Shown piece by piece: positions 3,083 to 24,224 of a DNA stretch of 33,948 nt. Location of the stretch: positions 1-33,948 of the IMG/VR virus record IMGVR_UViG_3300020477_000079; one strand, 5' to 3'. The position numbers and the translations under genes are program-made. This stretch comes from a virus. The notes under the pieces are model-generated. The model searched no databases. It had not been told where the DNA came from and worked only from the letters and a program-made list of their open reading frames with translations. Every line of letters starts with the position of its first letter. The stretch's first letter is position 1.

Positions 3083-5356
3083 ATGAAAAGTTTCAAATCT
3101 TTATTTCTTTCTGAAGATCTGTTAGATGAATCAGTTGGTCCTTGGAGACCTGAGGACCAAGTTGGAAAAAATGCTCATGCGTTCCATCGTGCCCAATGGG
3201 ATCATCACATGGATCAAAAAACTCAAGGAAAGCATAAAGGATTTAAACAATTACAAAAGGGTGTAGTATTTCAAAGTAATAGTGGTACTTGGGTTGGCCA
3301 GAGAAATGGTGTAAAACAAAAAGAATATTTTCCTTCTAGGCAACAAGCAGAGCATTGGGTTAATGGAACAATGCCAAATAAAGGTGGTATTTCTTTTCTT
3401 TCTAGAGATAAAAAATTTCACAATGATAGTTCTGCGTCATATGACCATGGAGAAAAAGAAATTCCTGGTAAGTTTCAACATGCTCCTTCAAAGATGCCAA
3501 GTGAAAAACCCAAAAAAGTTTCTAAACCAAAACCTAAAGTAGAGAAACCAAAACAAACAGATCATGAATTAGCACAAAAAGCATTAGAAAAATCTGAACC
3601 TGAACAACAACCAGAAAAAGAAACAACAAAACCTTTACAAAGAAATACTCCTGATGATCCACATTATCAAGAATTAAAAGAAAGGGATACTGCAAAAGTT
3701 GCAGAGTCTCTATCTATGACAAGAGATCAAGCTCAAGATAGAGCAATGGAAGCAGCAGAGCGAGGTATTGGTGCAGGAAACCCAGTATCGCAAGCTGGTG
3801 AATGTATGACAGTAAGAACAGTTCAAAGAATGCTTGAAGGTGGAAATGAAAATGATATTAGAGCAGAACTACAAAATATTGTAAATCAACCTGACCATGT
3901 TTTAAATAGTAAATCCGGAAAAGAGTGGGTTGATGCGGGTATGGCATGTGCACATAATATAATTGACACACATGGATTAGAAAATATTCAAGATGTTGCA
4001 TGGGATACGGATGAAGGAAATCTTTTGATGGGAACATCAGGACATGGAACAGCCGCTGATATGTTTGTTAAATTAGCAGACGGCACAAGAGTTGGTGTTA
4101 GTTTAAAAAAGGATGGTGCTATTAGAATTCATAATGGTGGATATGATAAAGTCTCAAGAAAAATTGCACAAGGTATGAGGGATCGTGGTGTTGATGAGCA
4201 AACAGTTAAGAAATTTGAAGAAGCAACTAATACCAATAATTACTGGAAAGATATTAATGAAGCTTTGAGTCCTGAAAAATTAAAACAATTTCAAAAAGAT
4301 ACACAGTCTGTTATTAATAAAATAGTTGATAGACCTTACAGTTTATATGCGGATGAAGTTTTAGGTGATGCGGCAGATAAAAGTAAATACACTGATATTA
4401 TGGTAGATGATGAAAATGGTGTACCAAAATTTTTATCAAATATTCAAAGAGATCTTGGACCCGAAGGTAGAGCAGAATTTAAATCAAAGATGGAAAAGTA
4501 TCATCAAGGATTGTTGAAAAAGGCACCAAGAGAAGGACCAGATGAAAATTCATTAAAAGTTTTATCAAAGATTGCTGCATATCAAGGTATGGATTTATAT
4601 TCTACTTTGAGAGATGCAGATGTAAAGCATTTTAATAGATTTATCACAACAATGAAAGGTGATTCTGGTTTGGAAAGTGCCATGAAAGATGAAATTTTAC
4701 ATGGTATGGAATTAGATCAAATATTAGGAATAGAAAAAAATCCAGCATTAGATAAGTTATCTGTTGTTTATGGAGTTCCACCAAGAGGTGCTGAATTGAA
4801 TGAGCAATCATTAATGAATATGTTAGGCAATGATACTCAAGATTTGTTAGAAGGTGTTCATGAACAATTTAGAACACACACAGATGACAAAAAGAAAAGT
4901 CTCGCTAAAGAGGCTTTAATGAAAAACATAAAAGATAAAATAGAAGTAGATTATGCAACTGGTGCTAAAGATGGTACAATTAAGTTTATTAAAGATTTAG
5001 GTAATGGACAAAAAACAGAATTTCCAATCTTTACTATGGGAGTGAGAACAAAAGGTATTGGTGTTTCACCAGGTTTTGAAATGGTCCAAACACAATTCAT
5101 GGGAAATGCATTAGAACATGGATTTGATATTGATCAATGGCCTGAGAAAGCAAGAAAAAAATGGTGGAATAATGAAATGACAAGAGCAAGAAAACAATTG
5201 AAAGATCTAGATGAAACAGATAAACAAACTTCACAGAGAGGTAAATCAGTTTCAGAGTACATGAAGTTTTTAACTGATAGAGTTCATAACTTAAAAGAAT
5301 CATATAAATCCATAGCACATAGTATTCATGAAATCTTTCAGCGATCATTTAATTAA
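3083..5356 (+). CDS. Putative capsid-targeted protein with PD-(D/E)xK-like nuclease region
   Basis: 757 residues. The N-terminus (MKSFKSLFLSE, then DLLDE) fits an MK(S/T)(F/Y) leader ending in LxE, like T4 internal head proteins cut by the prohead protease. Residues 58-96 form a small basic module (GTWVGQRNG...FPSRQQAEHW); 135-190 is a Lys/Pro/Glu-rich linker. Residues 235-360 contain E240, then AADMFVKLADGTRVGVSLKK with D326 and S340-x-K342, compatible with a D...(E/S)xK nuclease core followed by an NGGYDK segment. The rest is helical and charged. The start is 6 bases after the previous stop with no strong ribosome site, suggesting translational coupling. The 3' end overlaps the next gene by 29 bases. 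The nuclease assignment is a motif reading only; it could equally be a structural head protein. Confidence 0.6.
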   Translation: MKSFKSLFLSEDLLDESVGPWRPEDQVGKNAHAFHRAQWDHHMDQKTQGKHKGFKQLQKGVVFQSNSGTWVGQRNGVKQKEYFPSRQQAEHWVNGTMPNKGGISFLSRDKKFHNDSSASYDHGEKEIPGKFQHAPSKMPSEKPKKVSKPKPKVEKPKQTDHELAQKALEKSEPEQQPEKETTKPLQRNTPDDPHYQELKERDTAKVAESLSMTRDQAQDRAMEAAERGIGAGNPVSQAGECMTVRTVQRMLEGGNENDIRAELQNIVNQPDHVLNSKSGKEWVDAGMACAHNIIDTHGLENIQDVAWDTDEGNLLMGTSGHGTAADMFVKLADGTRVGVSLKKDGAIRIHNGGYDKVSRKIAQGMRDRGVDEQTVKKFEEATNTNNYWKDINEALSPEKLKQFQKDTQSVINKIVDRPYSLYADEVLGDAADKSKYTDIMVDDENGVPKFLSNIQRDLGPEGRAEFKSKMEKYHQGLLKKAPREGPDENSLKVLSKIAAYQGMDLYSTLRDADVKHFNRFITTMKGDSGLESAMKDEILHGMELDQILGIEKNPALDKLSVVYGVPPRGAELNEQSLMNMLGNDTQDLLEGVHEQFRTHTDDKKKSLAKEALMKNIKDKIEVDYATGAKDGTIKFIKDLGNGQKTEFPIFTMGVRTKGIGVSPGFEMVQTQFMGNALEHGFDIDQWPEKARKKWWNNEMTRARKQLKDLDETDKQTSQRGKSVSEYMKFLTDRVHNLKESYKSIAHSIHEIFQRSFN

Positions 5357-6560
5357 AGAAGCAAAAGAAGGAAAGAATCTTCATCTTGAACATATAGAAG
5401 ATGAGGTTTTGAATGGTGGAGTAGTAGGTACTAGAGGTGCCATTAACTTTCTTCAATCACTTAGAGATATGCTAGCTGGTAGTTCTGCTACTAATACTTT
5501 TATAACTACTAAGTGGGATGGTGCCCCAGCAGTTTTTGCAGGAATTAATCCAGAAAATAATAAATTTTTTGTTGGTTCTAAAAGTATTTTTAATAAAACA
5601 CCAAAGATAAACTACACACCACAGGATATAGATAATAATCACCCACCAGGACTTGGTGAAAAATTAAAAGTTGCATTGCAACATTTACCAAAATTAGGAA
5701 TAAAAGGAATACTCCAAGGTGACATGATGTTTGCTAAAGAAGATTTAGCAATGAAAACAATAGATGGGGAACAATATGTTACTTTTCAACCAAACACTAT
5801 TGTTTATGCAGTACCATTAAAAACTCAATTGGCAAGAGAAATACTAAATTCTAAAATGGGAATAGTATTTCATACAATGTATACTGGTACAAAAATGGAG
5901 GATATGAAATCTTCTTTCAATATAAATATTAGTAGTTTAAACAAAACAAGGGATGTATGGTTCAGAGATGCTAAGTTTACTGATGCATCTGGAACAGCAA
6001 CATTCACTAAACGTGATACAGATAGTATCACAAGAATACTTTCTCTTGTAGGGAGAACTTTTCAAACAATAAGTGCGAATACATTAAATACAATAGCGGA
6101 GCAATCTGACATCAATCTGATTATTAAAACTTTTAATAATAGTAAGATACGAGTAGGACAGACAATAGGTAATCCAAAGAGACATATAGATGAGTTGATT
6201 AAATATATAGAGACTAAGTTTGATAAGGAAATTGATAAATTAAAAACAGATAAATCTAAGAGTATACGAAGACAGAAAAAAGTAGAGTTTTTAAAGTTCT
6301 TCCTACAAAATAAAGGTGATCTCACAAAGATCTTTAGTTTAATGAATATGTTGATAGATGCTAAAATGATGTTAGTATCTAAGTTAGAAAAAATGGAACA
6401 ATTAACACAGACTTTTGTTCGTGATGGAGCGGGATACAAAGTTACAGCCCCAGAAGGATTTGTAGCAGTAGACAAAATAAAAGGTGGGGCAGTGAAGTTA
6501 GTCGATAGGTTAGAGTTCTCAAGAAATAATTTTAATGTAGAGTTAAAGAACTGGAGCTAA
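5328..6560 (+). CDS. Ligase-like covalent nucleotidyltransferase, putative capsid cargo
   Basis: 410 residues. K62-W-D64-G65 matches motif I (KxDG) of DNA/RNA ligases and capping enzymes, where the lysine is adenylylated. It is followed by a GSKS segment (83-86), ILQGDMMF (128-135, motif III-like), a hydrophobic FQPNTIVYAV segment (153-162, IIIa-like), then E376-G377-F-V (motif IV-like) and K390-L-V (motif V-like). An unusually long helical insert (about 200-365) separates IIIa from IV. The N-terminus MKSFSDHLIKEA resembles the T4 capsid-targeting sequence, with a possible I-K-E/A cleavage site. The start lies inside the end of the previous gene (29-base overlap). I infer a nucleic-acid ligase or related nucleotidyltransferase; substrate and cofactor (ATP or NAD+) cannot be told from sequence. 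Confidence 0.6.
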   Translation: MKSFSDHLIKEAKEGKNLHLEHIEDEVLNGGVVGTRGAINFLQSLRDMLAGSSATNTFITTKWDGAPAVFAGINPENNKFFVGSKSIFNKTPKINYTPQDIDNNHPPGLGEKLKVALQHLPKLGIKGILQGDMMFAKEDLAMKTIDGEQYVTFQPNTIVYAVPLKTQLAREILNSKMGIVFHTMYTGTKMEDMKSSFNINISSLNKTRDVWFRDAKFTDASGTATFTKRDTDSITRILSLVGRTFQTISANTLNTIAEQSDINLIIKTFNNSKIRVGQTIGNPKRHIDELIKYIETKFDKEIDKLKTDKSKSIRRQKKVEFLKFFLQNKGDLTKIFSLMNMLIDAKMMLVSKLEKMEQLTQTFVRDGAGYKVTAPEGFVAVDKIKGGAVKLVDRLEFSRNNFNVELKNWS

Positions 6561-7424: not shown

Positions 7425-7814
7425 ATGAAAACTTTTTTAGAGTCCTTACCACCCCATCTTGCTAAACACTTTGATAAAAAAGGTGATGCTATAAAAGGTG
7501 AATGGAAAGATGGTAAGTGGAAGGCTCTTAAAAAGAAACCAGATTTTAAAGTTACAGATGTAACTCCAAAAGGTTATGGACCAACTGATGAAGAATCTAA
7601 TATAGAAAGATTAAGAAAACAGTTGGCAATTCATAAGTTTAAAAAGTCTGGTGGTAAGATAGAAAAACAACCAGAAGGAGACGCTTACAACGCCATGAAG
7701 TGGAGAGGTAAAACTCATTCCACTCGTGATGAAGATGATGAAAATGAAAGAGCCAGAAGTGTTATGGCTTATCGAAAAAAGTTACGTGATAAGAAAAAGG
7801 CAAAAGGAAAATGA
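7425..7814 (+). CDS. Small basic protein with MKTF leader
   Basis: 129 residues, strongly basic at the C-terminus (KKLRDKKKAKGK). It begins MKTFLESLPPHL, sharing the MK(S/T)(F/Y) start of its neighbours although no LxE cleavage motif follows within the first dozen residues. The middle contains EWKDGKWKAL and a charged RDEDDENERAR stretch. It overlaps the next gene by 4 bases (ATGA), so translation is probably coupled. No recognised domain; a DNA-associated internal head protein is possible from charge and context, but this is inference. Confidence 0.6.
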   Translation: MKTFLESLPPHLAKHFDKKGDAIKGEWKDGKWKALKKKPDFKVTDVTPKGYGPTDEESNIERLRKQLAIHKFKKSGGKIEKQPEGDAYNAMKWRGKTHSTRDEDDENERARSVMAYRKKLRDKKKAKGK

Positions 7815-9196
7815 AGACATACAAAAATTTGATTCGTGAATCAAAAAGTAAAACAGCAGTGATGGTATTTGGTAGATTTAATCCACCAACCATCGGTCAC
7901 GGTAAATTACTTGAATCAGCTGGTAATACTGCTAGAAGATTTAAAGCTGATTTGTTTGTTTATGGAAGTCAATCTCAAGATCCAAAAAAGAATCCTTTGT
8001 CTAATAAACAAAAGATGGGATACATGAGAGAGATGTTTCCTTCATTTAAAAATTCTATACAAGCTGATCCAAATATAAGATCTGCAATTGATGCGGCAGT
8101 TAAATTAAATGAGTATGATCAATTAGTTATGGTTGTTGGTAGTGATAGAGTTGCTGACTTTAAAAAACTTTTAGAACAATATAATGGTAAACAAGCTAAA
8201 CATGGTATCTATGAATTTGATACAATTAGAATTGTGAGTGCGGGCGAAAGAGATCCAGATGCAGAAGGTGTTACAGGAATGTCTGCATCTAAAATGAGAA
8301 AGGCGGCAGCAGAAAGAGATATTGAATCTTTTAGAAAAGGTGTTCCTTCTGGAATGGCTGAACAATCTATGACCAGAATGATGAAAGCGGTTAGAAAAGG
8401 ATTGAATTTAAAAGAAGCAATTTTTGACAAAGAATGGCCAACTAGACCAGATAAAATTACATTAGAAGTACCAGAAAAAGATTTAGAATATAATTACATG
8501 GGATATGAAACAGAATACTTTTCTCATATGCCCATAGTTGAAGAAACTTTTTCTGAACTTAGAAGTCTTTCATTATCAAAAACTAAACACAATAGAACCA
8601 TAGTTGAAGCAATGAAAGAGACAGATAACTTAATTGAAAAAATGTGTTTGTTTGAATTGGGTCATACAGGTTTAGAAAATAAAATAGAATCATCTGTAAA
8701 AAAGATAGATAAACTTTTTGAAAGTATTGAAAAAGATTTTGGTGCATCAAAGGGTGATCTTTTTTATAGACCATTTTTATATCAAATATTAGAATCAATT
8801 ACTTGGGGTCCACATCCCGGCAAAATGGATACATCAGATACACAAGAGAATGGAAGATTTGGACAAAATGTAAAATCCATGGGACCTGTTGAGTGGGGAA
8901 CACCTGAGATGGTTGAGAGATATGCAGATTCTACTCCTGGGCAAGATTCTGAAAAAATATTATATGATACATATAAGTATAAAATGCAAAGAGATGTTAC
9001 TGGTGAAGCAGACAACTATGGTACAGTTGAACTTGCACAAGAAGAAGGTCCAGTAGCAAAAGTTAAAAAAGAATACGCAAGAAAATATAAAGATTTGATT
9101 TCAAATAGAAAGAAAGATGTTGGTAGTGCAAGGGTTGATCATGCAAGTAAAAATTTGAAATCAGCACAAAATTATTCTTCAGGAAGTAAAAGATGA
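7811..9196 (+). CDS. HxGH-family nucleotidyltransferase (NMN adenylyl/cytidylyltransferase-like), putative capsid cargo
   Basis: 461 residues. The leader MKTYKNLIRES aligns position for position with T4 MKTYQEFIAEA, giving a possible I-R-E/S prohead-protease site. Residues 15-165 form a nucleotidyltransferase domain: GRFNPPTIGH (21-30, the nucleotide-binding TxGH-type motif), VVGSDRVADF (108-117) and TGMSASKMRKAA (155-166, equivalent to the ISSTxxR/SGTxVR motif). These motifs define the NadM/NadD/CoaD/cytidylyltransferase superfamily. Residues 180-461 form an additional charged, helical region of unknown function, so the protein is more than twice the length of a stand-alone NadM. It overlaps both flanking genes by 4 bases. 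The likely reaction is adenylyl or cytidylyl transfer to a phosphorylated substrate; NMN is one candidate. Confidence 0.75.
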   Translation: MKTYKNLIRESKSKTAVMVFGRFNPPTIGHGKLLESAGNTARRFKADLFVYGSQSQDPKKNPLSNKQKMGYMREMFPSFKNSIQADPNIRSAIDAAVKLNEYDQLVMVVGSDRVADFKKLLEQYNGKQAKHGIYEFDTIRIVSAGERDPDAEGVTGMSASKMRKAAAERDIESFRKGVPSGMAEQSMTRMMKAVRKGLNLKEAIFDKEWPTRPDKITLEVPEKDLEYNYMGYETEYFSHMPIVEETFSELRSLSLSKTKHNRTIVEAMKETDNLIEKMCLFELGHTGLENKIESSVKKIDKLFESIEKDFGASKGDLFYRPFLYQILESITWGPHPGKMDTSDTQENGRFGQNVKSMGPVEWGTPEMVERYADSTPGQDSEKILYDTYKYKMQRDVTGEADNYGTVELAQEEGPVAKVKKEYARKYKDLISNRKKDVGSARVDHASKNLKSAQNYSSGSKR

Positions 9197-13656: not shown

Positions 13657-14655
13657 ATGAGTTTATTCACTGATCAAAAGTATCTTAATATTCTATCTTC
13701 ACAACTACCTCTCTTTAAAAAGAAGGGAGATCATTTGTGGAACTTTCGTTGTCCCATCTGCGGTGACTCACGCAAAAACAAAACAAAAACTAGAGGGTAT
13801 GTTTACAGAAAACAAAACAATCTATTTTTTAAGTGTCACAACTGCGGGGATGGAAGATCTGTATCCAACTTAATTAAATTTTTAGATACAGATTTACATA
13901 AGCAATATGTTCTAGAAGTATACAAAGATTCACAAAATAGATTTACACAACCAAAAGAAAAACCTCAATATAATTTTAGAAGACCCACTTTTAAGAAAAA
14001 GAAACAAGTAAAGTTACCTACCATAAAATCATTATCAGATGATCATTACGCTAAATCATATCTAGTTAAAAGAAAGATACCAGATAAGTTTCTTAGTTTA
14101 ATTTATTATGCGGAAGACTTTTCTTCTTGGGTCAAACAATATGATGAAGAATATAAAGGTGACTCTGATCCAAGAATATTAATTCCATTTTTTGATAAAC
14201 ATGGAAACTTAATTGCTGCTCAAGGTAGAGCTCTTAATAATACTAAATTAAGATATATCACTATAAAAATTGAGAAGGATGCACAGAAATTATATGGACT
14301 TGATAGAGCAAATTTAAATAAAAAAGTTTATGTGGTTGAAGGTCCAATAGATTCTATGTTCTTGGATAATTGCGTTGCCATGGCTGGATCAGATGTTTCT
14401 GATCTTTCATCCATAAAGGATAAGGTTATTATATATGATAATGAACCAAGAAACAGAGAGATAGTGAAAAAGATGGAAAAAACTATTGAAAATCAAACAC
14501 CTATATGTATTTGGCCATCCGACTTGAAATTTAAGGATATTAATGATATAATAATATCAGGTGTTAGTAAAGATAGTATCAAAGATATTATAGATAGTAA
14601 TACATATGTTGGTCCACCAGCAATCTTAAAGTTAAATTTTTGGAGAAAGATATGA
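13657..14655 (+). CDS. 61: DNA primase, T4 gp61-like
   Basis: 332 residues, close to the length of T4 gp61 (about 340). It makes RNA primers for lagging-strand synthesis together with the replicative helicase. An N-terminal zinc finger is clear: C32-P-I-C35 and C60-H-N-C63, with basic residues between. The TOPRIM catalytic domain follows: VYVVEGPIDS with E228 and D232, VIIYDNE with D261, and a KFKDIND segment (291-297). AAGAGGAAA lies 6 bases before the ATG, within a perfect inverted repeat that may control its access. It is the first gene after a strong promoter. It ends in an ATGA overlap with the small gene at 14652. Confidence 0.9.
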   Translation: MSLFTDQKYLNILSSQLPLFKKKGDHLWNFRCPICGDSRKNKTKTRGYVYRKQNNLFFKCHNCGDGRSVSNLIKFLDTDLHKQYVLEVYKDSQNRFTQPKEKPQYNFRRPTFKKKKQVKLPTIKSLSDDHYAKSYLVKRKIPDKFLSLIYYAEDFSSWVKQYDEEYKGDSDPRILIPFFDKHGNLIAAQGRALNNTKLRYITIKIEKDAQKLYGLDRANLNKKVYVVEGPIDSMFLDNCVAMAGSDVSDLSSIKDKVIIYDNEPRNREIVKKMEKTIENQTPICIWPSDLKFKDINDIIISGVSKDSIKDIIDSNTYVGPPAILKLNFWRKI

Positions 14656-17655: not shown

Positions 17656-18349
17656 AACTTGTGATGTTGTAGAAGCAGTACACGGAACATCCCGCCCATT
17701 TGGTTTATCAAAAACAAATTTAATTAATGTTTGTTTTAAGTCATTAGTCAATTCACTACGAGATATTGAATTTGATATGACTATATTGGGTGATAGATTA
17801 ACCAATGAAAGAATAGAATTTTTTCAACCATGGTGTCATAATTTATACAATGGTGAACTTGGTAATGGAAAATCCATCGCTGAATGTTTTACTTTAGCTT
17901 CCAAATTGCCTGATGATGAGTGGGTTTATTTTTGTGAAGATGATTATTTACATCAGAATTTTTCTTTAAAATGGATACTTGATTTTATTCAAAATTTTAA
18001 TTATGAAAATCTTTTTATTCATCCCGTTGATTATCCAGACAGATATACAAGATTAGAAGATGTTAATACTAGGTGGCATTTATTTAAAAGTAATCACTGT
18101 CATTGGAGACAGATATATAATACAACATATACTTTTTTATGTCAAGTGAAAACATTTAAAAAATTTTTTGATATCTTTATGAAGTCTGCACCTGATTGGA
18201 ATGATGGATTGTTTTCAGAACAAGTTTATAAAAGAAATGATGTTCTTTGTTTAAGTCCCATACCTTCTTTGGCGTGTCATATGCATGAAGTATGTATGAG
18301 TCCTTTTGTTGATTGGAAAAAAATTATAATGGAGTTACAAAATGATTGA
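17633..18349 (+). CDS. GT-A-like glycosyltransferase
   Basis: 238 residues. WVYFCEDDYLH (97-107) provides an acidic E102-D103-D104 cluster after a hydrophobic strand, in the position of the DxD metal/nucleotide-sugar motif of GT-A enzymes. An upstream FDMTILGDRL segment (47-56) and downstream FIHPVDYPDRY suggest the same fold. The start lies inside the preceding GT4 gene and its end overlaps thyX by 8 bases. I infer a second glycosyltransferase acting in the same pathway; this is less certain than the GT4 call. Confidence 0.6.
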   Translation: MKINIIYRTCDVVEAVHGTSRPFGLSKTNLINVCFKSLVNSLRDIEFDMTILGDRLTNERIEFFQPWCHNLYNGELGNGKSIAECFTLASKLPDDEWVYFCEDDYLHQNFSLKWILDFIQNFNYENLFIHPVDYPDRYTRLEDVNTRWHLFKSNHCHWRQIYNTTYTFLCQVKTFKKFFDIFMKSAPDWNDGLFSEQVYKRNDVLCLSPIPSLACHMHEVCMSPFVDWKKIIMELQND

Positions 18350-19130
18350 AGAAAAAAAAGTACACCAACATGGTTTTGTTAAATTACTTGAAGTCATGGG
18401 TGATGATGAAGAAGTGGTTAATGCAGCAAGAATAAGTTATGGTAAAGGAACTAAAAAGTTTTCTGAAACTAGAAACTTAATTAGGTATCTGATGAGACAC
18501 AAACATACATCACCTTTTGAAATGTGTGAAGTAAAGTTTCATTTAAAATTACCAATCTTTATAATGCGTCAGTTAGTTAGACATAGAACTGCAAATATAA
18601 ATGAATACTCTGGCAGGTATTCTGAAATGTCAGATGAATTTTATATACCAGAAAATGAGTACATTCAAAAACAATCCAAGACAAACAATCAAGGTAGAGG
18701 TGATGAATCAGAAGAAAAAGGATTAGTAAAATTTGAAATGAATAGATCTGCAGATGGTGCTTATCACGCTTATCAACATATGTTAAATTATGATATTGCA
18801 AGAGAGTTGGCAAGAACAGTACTACCAGTTTCTAACTATACTGAATGTATTTGGAAAATAGATTTACATAACTTTTTTCATATGGTTCATCTAAGATCTG
18901 ATTCACATGCTCAAATAGAAATTCAAGATTATTCTAATGCAATGTATAGTTTAGTTGAACCTCACTTTCCAATTTGTTGTGAAGCGTTTGAAGATTATGT
19001 TGTTAATGCAAGATCATTTAGTGCAGAAGAAATGAGAATAATTAAAGATCAATTAGATGGAAGTTGGGTAATGGATAAGTATAATTTGTCTAAAAGAGAA
19101 CGTGAAGAATTCTTATGGAAACTGAAGTAA
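18342..19130 (+). CDS. thyX: Flavin-dependent thymidylate synthase
   Basis: 262 residues. ThyX makes dTMP from dUMP using methylene-tetrahydrofolate, FAD and NADPH. The ThyX signature RHRTANINEYSGRYS is at 80-94, preceded by MRQLV, with SPFEMCEVKFHLKLPIF (57-73) upstream and LVEPHFPICCEAFE near the C-terminus. The usual RHRxxSxNxxSxRY has Asn (N85) in place of the first Ser; from memory this variant occurs in alphaproteobacterial and phage ThyX. It lies inside a glycosylation cluster: it overlaps the GT-A-like gene by 8 bases and the first GT9-like gene by 16. It is expected to supply thymidine for phage DNA along with the class II reductase at 22263. Confidence 0.93.
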   Translation: MIEEKKVHQHGFVKLLEVMGDDEEVVNAARISYGKGTKKFSETRNLIRYLMRHKHTSPFEMCEVKFHLKLPIFIMRQLVRHRTANINEYSGRYSEMSDEFYIPENEYIQKQSKTNNQGRGDESEEKGLVKFEMNRSADGAYHAYQHMLNYDIARELARTVLPVSNYTECIWKIDLHNFFHMVHLRSDSHAQIEIQDYSNAMYSLVEPHFPICCEAFEDYVVNARSFSAEEMRIIKDQLDGSWVMDKYNLSKREREEFLWKLK

Positions 19131-22262: not shown

Positions 22263-24224
22263 ATGCCATTACCTACAGAGTATCAATCATTCATCCATCT
22301 TTCCAGATATGCAAGATGGGATTATGAAAAGAAAAGACGTGAAACATGGGAAGAAACAGTTAATAGATATTTTGATTTTTTTGCCGATCACTTAAAAGAA
22401 AACCATGGATTTAAATTAGACAATGGAGAAAGAATTAAGATACAAGATGCGGTAATTGATCTAAAAGTTATGCCTTCTATGAGATGTTTGATGACTGCGG
22501 GCGAAGCTCTTAAAAAAGAAAATACAGCAGGATATAATTGTTCTTATATTAAAGTAGATAATCAAAGATCTTTTGATGAAATTTTATATGTATTAATGAA
22601 TGGAACAGGAGTAGGATTTTCTGTTGAAGATGAATATACAAATCAATTACCAGTTGTTCCAGATGAGTTATATGAAACTGATACAGTAGTTGTTGTAGCT
22701 GATTCTAAATTAGGTTGGGCTAAAGCACTGAAAGAATTAGTTTCTTTATTGTATGGTGGACATATAGCAAAGTGGGATGTTTCTAAAGTAAGAGCGGCAG
22801 GTACACCACTTAAAACATTTGGCGGCCGTGCGTCTGGACCAGAACCTTTAGTTGATTTATTTAATTTTGTCATAAATACATTTAAGAACGCAACAGGAAG
22901 AAAGTTAAAGTCTATTGAGTGTCATGATATCGTTTGTAAAATCGCAGAAATTGTTGTCGTGGGCGGTGTTAGGCGTTCTGCTCTTATCAGTCTTTCTAAT
23001 CTTAATGATCGTGAAATGCGATTCGCAAAATCAGGATCTTGGTGGGAAGCTAACGTACAACGAGCACTCGCAAACAATTCGGTTAACTATAAAGAAAAGC
23101 CAGACGTTGGTACTTTCATGCGAGAGTGGCTCAGTCTCTACGATAGTAAATCCGGGGAACGGGGGATTTATAGCAGTCTGTCGGCCCAAAAGCATGTTGA
23201 ACAATTAAACAAACAGGAAACAGATGGAGATGGAAATTTTATTCAGCGACGAGAACCAAGAACAGACTTTGGAACTAACCCCTGCAGTGAGATCATCCTT
23301 AGAAGCAGAGAGTTCTGCAATCTTAGTGAAGTCGTTATCAGAAGATCAGACGATGTCCAATCTTTGGAAGAAAAAGTTAGATTTGCAACTATCATTGGCA
23401 CCTTCCAATCCACTCTTACCAATTTCAAATACTTGTCAAGAGAATGGAAACGAAATTGTGACGACGAGCGACTTCTTGGAGTATCTCTTACAGGAATAAT
23501 GGACAATCCTTTAACTAACGGCACTAAAAAGGGATTAGATGAATTACTTGAAAGACTTAAAAAGGTGGCAGTGGAAACTAACAAAGAGTATGCAGAAAAA
23601 CTTGGAATTCCTAGAAGCGCCGCCATTACTTGTGTCAAACCCTCTGGCACTGTTAGTCAGTTGGTCGATAGCGCTAGTGGTATTCATTCCCGTCACAATC
23701 CTTATTATATCAGAACTGTGAGAGCAGACAACAAAGATCCATTGTGCGTGTTCATGAAAGAAGCAGGATTTCCTAATGAACCAGATGTAACTAAACCACA
23801 ACATACAAGTGTATTTTCTTTTCCTATGGAAAGTCCAAAAGGTGCGGTGTGTAGACAAGATGTATCATCACAAAAACAATTAGATCTTTGGCATACATAT
23901 GCTAAAAAGTGGTGTGAACATAAACCATCAGTAACTATTTCAGTTAAAGAAGATGAATGGGTAGATACTGCTGCATGGGTGTATGAAAAATTTGATGACA
24001 TTTCTGGTATTAGTTTTTTACCTTTTAGTGATCATAGTTATCAACAAGCACCATATCAAGATTGTACTAAAGAAGAATATGAAGAACTATTAAAAACAAT
24101 GCCAAAAAATGTTGATTGGTCTGACTTATCAAAATATGAAGAACAAGATTATACGGCAGGAGCACAAGAATTAGCTTGTGCTGCAGATGGTGGATGTGAA
24201 GTAGTAGATCTACCAACAACATAA
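22263..24224 (+). CDS. nrdJ: Adenosylcobalamin-dependent (class II) ribonucleotide reductase
   Basis: 653 residues (the Lactobacillus monomeric enzyme has 739). It reduces ribonucleotides to deoxyribonucleotides using coenzyme B12 as radical source, without oxygen. The active site is complete: N339-P-C341-S-E343 (thiyl cysteine and general-base Glu/Asn) with C352 eleven residues later. This reproduces the spacing of N406, C408, E410 and C419 in the Lactobacillus enzyme; C93 (YNCSY) is the partner of C352. A C-terminal redox pair C639/C645 lies in CAADGGC. AAGGAA precedes the ATG. The central third of the gene is more GC-rich with many CGN arginine codons, unlike the flanks. No intein interrupts it. 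Confidence 0.93.
   Translation: MPLPTEYQSFIHLSRYARWDYEKKRRETWEETVNRYFDFFADHLKENHGFKLDNGERIKIQDAVIDLKVMPSMRCLMTAGEALKKENTAGYNCSYIKVDNQRSFDEILYVLMNGTGVGFSVEDEYTNQLPVVPDELYETDTVVVVADSKLGWAKALKELVSLLYGGHIAKWDVSKVRAAGTPLKTFGGRASGPEPLVDLFNFVINTFKNATGRKLKSIECHDIVCKIAEIVVVGGVRRSALISLSNLNDREMRFAKSGSWWEANVQRALANNSVNYKEKPDVGTFMREWLSLYDSKSGERGIYSSLSAQKHVEQLNKQETDGDGNFIQRREPRTDFGTNPCSEIILRSREFCNLSEVVIRRSDDVQSLEEKVRFATIIGTFQSTLTNFKYLSREWKRNCDDERLLGVSLTGIMDNPLTNGTKKGLDELLERLKKVAVETNKEYAEKLGIPRSAAITCVKPSGTVSQLVDSASGIHSRHNPYYIRTVRADNKDPLCVFMKEAGFPNEPDVTKPQHTSVFSFPMESPKGAVCRQDVSSQKQLDLWHTYAKKWCEHKPSVTISVKEDEWVDTAAWVYEKFDDISGISFLPFSDHSYQQAPYQDCTKEEYEELLKTMPKNVDWSDLSKYEEQDYTAGAQELACAADGGCEVVDLPTT
22925..23760 (+). 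other. Compositionally distinct tract inside nrdJ
   Basis: Between about 22925 and 23760 the gene switches from AGA-dominated arginine codons and high AT to frequent CGT/CGA/CGG codons and visibly higher GC (for example around 23130-23190), then returns to the local style. By hand I count about a dozen CGN codons here, against almost none in the flanking parts of the gene. The tract covers the catalytic core (NPCSEI, EFCNL). It suggests a recombined or laterally acquired segment; boundaries are approximate. Confidence 0.6.

Follow-up and report, generated by a model that had tools for sequence, protein, structure and literature searches.

In bacteriophage T4, the first ten residues of capsid-targeted proteins are enough for capsid targeting, with residues 4 and 7 mattering for targeting and residues 8 and 10 for cutting by the prohead protease, which cleaves after L/I-X-E (PMC9026906). 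The T4 internal proteins IPII and IPIII, which are capsid-targeted and injected, begin with MKTYQEFIAE|A. For the phage S-CREM2, a virion proteome determined by mass spectrometry has been published (PMC10665884). The Pfam family DUF6267 (PF19782) corresponds to PHROG 455 and to cyanophage cluster T4-GC71, none of which has an assigned function, and our literature search by the Pfam name found no paper. Here, we analyzed the DUF6267 gene in the 33,948-base virus record IMGVR_UViG_3300020477_000079 (this whole stretch of DNA is called the window), and we suggest that DUF6267 is, very probably, a divergent enzyme of the nucleic-acid ligase type, with a T4-like capsid-targeting tag at its start in this phage. 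The gene is as follows.

5328..6560, plus strand: DUF6267 protein of 410 aa, predicted ligase-fold covalent nucleotidyltransferase (PF19782, E 2.2e-116; phrog_455, E 3.9e-110; AlphaFold2 mean predicted local distance difference test (pLDDT) 89.7, predicted template modeling score (pTM) 0.85)

Residues 17-405 of the window protein matched the Pfam profile with 389.8 bits against a gathering cut-off of 27, and the protein is a full-length member. By tblastn, DUF6267 was found in 468 phage records, mostly of T4-like phages of Synechococcus and Prochlorococcus, in addition to phages of Pelagibacter, Methylophilales, Stenotrophomonas, and others. Matches to DUF6267 and to UvsX numbered 368 and 375, respectively, in Synechococcus records, and 61 each in records labelled Cyanophage; the family is present in almost every T4-like cyanophage record searched. 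With a ligase-type reading, a marine phage gene that is nearly universal yet has no assigned function would acquire a role open to experiment. Related loci were taken from viral contigs and from genome records (mostly metagenome-derived bins), and the latter loci are probably phage contigs. In the older S-PM2 record NC_006820 (103025-104804), DUF6267 is divided over two annotated genes; LN828717 aligns in one piece.

A preliminary description of this DNA had noted KWDG (62-65), GDMMF (131-135), EGFV (376-379), and KLV (390-392) in the order of ligase motifs, and the translation bears out every one of these positions. We then compared 92 non-redundant DUF6267 relatives (<85% identity), and the following elements emerged.

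5382..5399, plus strand: N-terminal element H19-L-E-H22-I-E24; H19 and H22 invariant, structurally opposite the T4 Rnl2 N-terminus
5511..5522, plus strand: motif I, KWDG (62-65), with the predicted nucleophile K62
5577..5585, plus strand: motif Ia-like S84-K85-S86
5715..5723, plus strand: motif III, Q130-G-D132
5793..5807, plus strand: motif IIIa-like N156-T-I-V-Y160; N156 and Y160 invariant
6453..6464, plus strand: motif IV, E376-G-F-V379
6495..6503, plus strand: motif V, K390-L-V392, lacking the second Lys of the classical KxK

The lysine at position 62, whose conservation had been proposed as a check, is present in all 92 relatives, as are D64, G65, P67, K85, Q130, D132, N156, H182, T183, Y185, E376, G377, V379, K390, and R394, and every ligase motif residue was retained in a second alignment to which short members had been added. 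In position and order, these conserved residues match covalent nucleotidyltransferase motifs I, Ia, III, IIIa, IV, and V; that is, a KxDG with an invariant lysine is followed, in order, by invariant D132, E376, and K390. The spacings I-Ia, Ia-III, and IV-V are 23, 47, and 14 in the window protein and 23, 48, and 12 in a short member, compared with 20, 40, and 13 in T4 Rnl1 and 19, 45, and 21 in T4 Rnl2. In 20,000 shuffled versions of the window protein, a regular expression for the full I-Ia-III-IIIa-IV-V series had no match, whereas a looser one, K.DG...EG.V...K, had 17; these counts are a rough guide only because the expressions were composed after the motifs were known. It is conservation across the 92 relatives that constitutes the real test of the motifs.

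Structure prediction followed by fold search, the check suggested for the first reading of the gene, yielded a model with the covalent nucleotidyltransferase (ligase) fold. In an earlier AlphaFold2 run with 32 sequences, the block of residues 351-410, which holds motifs IV and V, reached a pLDDT of 43-68; it was superseded by the run with a 92-sequence alignment, whose scores are given above. When the model was aligned to PDB structures with a second-look aligner, ligases made up 49 of the best 50 matches listed. Naegleria RNA ligase NgrRnl ranked first (Z 8.6; 186 residues, 4.0 Å) and RNA-editing ligase 1 (REL1) second (8.2), followed by fungal Trl1 (7.6), T4 Rnl2 (7.6), and human DNA ligase 1 (LIG1; 6.8), with archaeal RNA ligases (5.9-6.5) and T4 DNA ligase gp30 (5.8) lower. 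Z values of this size can be unspecific, and the model is read as a ligase fold in view of the agreement among the ligase-dominated list, the coverage (model residues 13-404 around the insert described below), and motif conservation. In the alignment to T4 Rnl2 (1s68), model residues 15-399 lie on Rnl2 residues 3-233, which would set the HLEH element against the N-terminus of Rnl2 and bring K390 close to the lysines of its motif V, as judged from the aligned ranges, not from residue pairs. A possible assignment of the HLEH element as a nicotinamide mononucleotide (NMN)-binding domain of the LigA type was dropped because of this placement. Chance occurrence of the motifs in a protein that is no nucleotidyltransferase at all would accord with the missing sequence-profile link to ligases and the middling Z values; the invariant motif residues, their spacing, and the near-exclusive ligase list argue against this explanation, which we regard as highly improbable.

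DUF6267 resembles T4 Rnl2, NgrRnl, and RNA-editing ligase 1 in predicted fold, including the N-terminal element, in motif order, and in I-Ia-III spacing, whereas it differs from them in that profile similarity is missing, helices are inserted between IIIa and IV, motif V has KLV for KxK and is not followed by a C-terminal domain, and motif IV does not end in a lysine. T4 RNA ligase 1 is similar in the stretch from motif IV to V, where its EGYVAVM...FKIKSD parallels EGFVAVD...VKLVDR of the window protein, with an IV-V spacing of 13 versus 14, and in motif Ia, which is SKG in Rnl1 and TKG/SKS in DUF6267, whereas PF09511 was not among the matches listed and the N- and C-terminal parts of Rnl1 are missing. 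Profile-profile comparison of DUF6267 with the T4 Rnl2 and gp30 family profiles found nothing (hhalign against the T4 Rnl2 family gave E 0.2 with motifs out of register), a null result that is weak evidence of absence because the ligase profiles are narrow. No ligase family was among the 25 families listed in a Pfam scan of all 92 members, nor was PF09414 or the T4 Rnl2 family profile among those listed for the window protein, and a PDB sequence search gave low-scoring matches only, mostly to the helical insert. With respect to Rnl2-type ligases, motif V is KLV instead of KxK; with respect to ATP-dependent DNA ligases, only one helix (394-402) comes after motif V. No more than 18 residues lie between motif V and the C-terminus, so that both an OB domain and a motif VI are absent. 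The suggestion of a new branch of the ligase family is a fair one, in that DUF6267, to which the protein belongs, is known as a family yet unannotated, and has no profile link to known ligase families.

The long insert between the IIIa-like segment and motif IV, which had also drawn attention at first reading, is real in the window protein, where the distance from NTIVY to motif IV is ~218 residues, compared with 50 in T4 Rnl1, 87 in T4 Rnl2, and 141 in S-CREM2 gp87.

6009..6389, plus strand: helical insert, residues 228-354, six helices by DSSP on the AlphaFold2 model, pLDDT mostly >90

Not every family member has it. Short DUF6267 members of ~295-324 aa (S-CREM2 gp87, P-SSM7, S-RIM8, and related locus L196) have all motifs and lack most of the insert, which thus marks a subfamily.

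In addition to the ligase motifs, the window protein carries an N-terminus that passes as a CTS (capsid-targeting sequence) with an L/I-X-E site, as in T4-type internal proteins.

5328..5360, plus strand: capsid-targeting-like N-terminus MKSFSDHLIKE, with a predicted prohead-protease cut after E11 (I-K-E|A), from the pattern in relatives and the L/I-X-E rule

The layout is that of T4 IPII and IPIII, with an aromatic residue at position 4, L/I before x-E near residue 10, and Ala past the cut; the mature part, in contrast, would be a predicted ligase-fold enzyme and not a small basic protein, and cleavage is only predicted here. Residues 1-14 of the model have a pLDDT <50. A T4-like tag pattern was found in 54 of the 92 non-redundant relatives, the residue after Glu being most often A or S. 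The tag is also present on the DUF6267 copies of laboratory phages such as Methylophilales phage Melnitz and Stenotrophomonas phage DLP6. Under a strict pattern, 50 of 91 DUF6267 starts matched, compared with 13/79 open reading frames (ORFs) directly upstream, 17/80 directly downstream, 10% of those one place further downstream, 1-6% of the remaining ORFs, and 11 of 5478 internal Met positions (0.2%).

The pattern also agrees with the published S-CREM2 mass spectrometry, and offers a simple sequence rule to predict virion-borne enzymes of marine phages. Among S-CREM2 proteins of at least 75 aa, 5 of 52 detected in virions had the tag pattern versus 0 of 99 undetected (one-sided Fisher p 0.004); three undetected proteins of 55-66 aa also fit, and with them p is 0.02. 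The virion-detected proteins gp6, gp13, gp14, gp136, and gp154 (loci L255 and L257) have the starts MKDFDSFLEE, MKDLHSFLTE, VKRFDAFLTE, MQTFSMFFSE, and MKNFSSFLTE, and those that are tagged include an S-adenosylmethionine (SAM) hydrolase, a kinase, and a cytidylyltransferase (MKNFSSFLTE|A). The authors of the proteome warn of possible co-purification (PMC10665884); the cytidylyltransferase was also detected in S-SM1 virions (PMC3037559). S-CREM2 gp12 (annotated Cas9) has a similar LRFASFMAEAA ~16 residues in, perhaps reflecting a misplaced start. As the S-CREM2 copy of DUF6267 is untagged and unlisted and a tagged neighbor family occurs in virions, head packaging of the window protein is put forward as a prediction. 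At one related locus (L036), four small ORFs upstream of DUF6267 have the tag-like starts MKSFKQYLKE, MISFKQYVVE, MISFKQYITE, and MKSFKEFVNE, and may form a cassette of packaged proteins.

These data lead us to propose that the window protein forms lysyl-AMP (adenosine monophosphate) and seals ends in the manner of an RNA ligase, and that in this lineage it travels in the virion and is injected, a proposal whose chances we consider evenly balanced. Its grounds are the family, the invariant motifs, the predicted fold, the tag-like N-terminus, and the conserved neighborhood; from sequence and model, we infer AMP transfer, an RNA substrate, and packaging. In this scheme, lysyl-AMP would arise from attack by K62 on a nucleotide, most likely ATP, in a pocket that D132, E376, and K390 complete; a 5'-phosphate end would next be activated by the AMP and sealed. 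The enzyme would thus presumably act on nucleic acid ends, and since the catalytic domain is closest to RNA ligases (NgrRnl, RNA-editing ligase 1, Trl1, and T4 Rnl2), its likeliest task is repair of broken RNA, for example cleaved tRNA or rRNA. The helical insert may stand in for the usual accessory domain and hold the substrate. Residues 1 to ~11 would, in this phage and in the majority of long-form relatives, steer the protein into the prohead and then be removed by the prohead protease, and the mature enzyme would be injected with the DNA, probably together with a nicotinamide mononucleotide adenylyltransferase (NMNAT)-like neighbor.

Several observations weigh against this proposal. The best Z is barely above the level common for models without clear relatives, and Foldseek by itself gave no significant match in the PDB, the best being human DNA ligase IV (E 0.12). 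No sequence profile ties DUF6267 to Rnl1, Rnl2, or the ATP-dependent or NAD+ (nicotinamide adenine dinucleotide)-dependent DNA ligases, and the preference for RNA over DNA comes solely from structural rank. Motif IV does not end in the lysine usual in ligases, and motif V has only one of the usual two; the chemistry could be altered or lost as a result. As for packaging, the full tag pattern is unmatched in 38 of the 92 relatives, and DUF6267 is missing among the virion proteins listed for S-CREM2, whose copy is a short, untagged form. The two lost lysines, the tag-like N-terminus, and the presence of a neighbor family in virions would all suit a degenerate, non-catalytic ligase fold that serves as an internal head or DNA-binding protein; yet all core catalytic residues are invariant across deep divergence, which a structural role would not need, and we find this explanation improbable.

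A serious rival to the RNA-sealing proposal, if a rather unlikely one, is that DUF6267 is a DNA-sealing enzyme replacing T4 gp30, perhaps together with the small DUF6433 protein. In many relatives the gene lies in a replication cluster, with the order uvsX, gp41, often mazG, an ORF of ~350-600 aa, DUF6267, and an NMNAT/cytidylyltransferase-like gene, and none of the four known ligase families (PF01068, PF01653, PF09414, and PF09511) had a match in the phages Melnitz, S-PM2, HTVC008M, P-HM2, Syn1, and C48C1. DUF6433 is present in 440 phage records and in every one of the 9 DUF6267 phages tested, and is absent from T4; S-CREM2 gp190 (L257:44929-45432), annotated as 'DNA ligase', is a DUF6433 protein of 167 aa without a KxDG motif. 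This family weakly matches (E 6.5e-4) the start of a 532-aa ORF of phage DLP6, an ORF in which a PF01068 ligase domain is also located, and T4 gp30 residues 2-47 align with it in register (E 0.054, probability 1%), so that DUF6433 may be a detached or stand-alone DNA-ligase N-terminal domain. Set against these findings, an OB domain and motif VI are both missing from DUF6267, RNA ligases outrank DNA ligases structurally, and a head-packaging tag is odd on a replication enzyme. DLP6 and S-CRM01 carry a DNA_ligase_A_M protein alongside DUF6267, which weakens the simple idea of gp30 replacement.

In the window, the genes flanking DUF6267 include the following.

3083..5356, plus strand: upstream ORF with the CTS-like start MKSFKSLFLSE|D and a D...SLKK stretch; overlaps the DUF6267 start by 29 nt
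7811..9196, plus strand: NMNAT/cytidylyltransferase-like protein with GRFNPPTIGH and the CTS-like start MKTYKNLIRE|S (PF01467, E 4.8e-5; phrog_3041, E 1.4e-62)

The D...SLKK stretch is common to the upstream ORFs of the window, P-HM2, Syn1, P-SSM7, ACG-2014d, and S-H35, and is a lead, drawn from a short stretch, to a possible nuclease of the PD-(D/E)XK type; the window ORF itself had no family match and no profile backing for a nuclease. An ORF with a HIGH motif lies at most 6 kb downstream of DUF6267 in 35 of the 58 loci with enough sequence, several overlapping it by a few bases, and fusions of DUF6267 with a cytidylyltransferase were seen in an S-PM2 protein in BFVD (A0A0M6VVW4, 591 aa) and in the make-up of PHROG 455. 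The NMNAT-like neighbor frequently carries a tag like that of DUF6267, and its family was detected in cyanophage virions by mass spectrometry. Such a partner, adjacent or fused, together with the single lysine of motif V, could also point to a nucleotidyltransferase in NAD+ chemistry: either an NAD+-consuming adenylyltransferase that releases NMN for recycling by the neighbor, or a counter to NAD+-depleting defense. Against this role, which we regard as very unlikely, the structural resemblance of the N-terminal element is to RNA ligases, and the LigA profile PF01653 had no match in the DUF6267 phage genomes tested. Returning to the end-sealing proposal, we raise the tentative idea that T4-like marine phages use T4-style tags to load a ligase-type nucleotidyltransferase into the head, along with an NMNAT-like enzyme and perhaps a nuclease, and inject them together with the genome as a nucleic-acid end-repair kit that would be active before phage gene expression.

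The neighbors of DUF6267 in the window are unrelated to each other, and the first two (3083-5356 and 7811-9196) have tag-like starts; the ORF at 7425-7814 begins with MKTFLESL. Further downstream are a DnaG-like primase (13657-14655), thyX (18342-19130), and a B12-type ribonucleotide reductase-like protein (22263-24224; TIGR02505, below the cut-off), a set of genes for replication and nucleotide metabolism.

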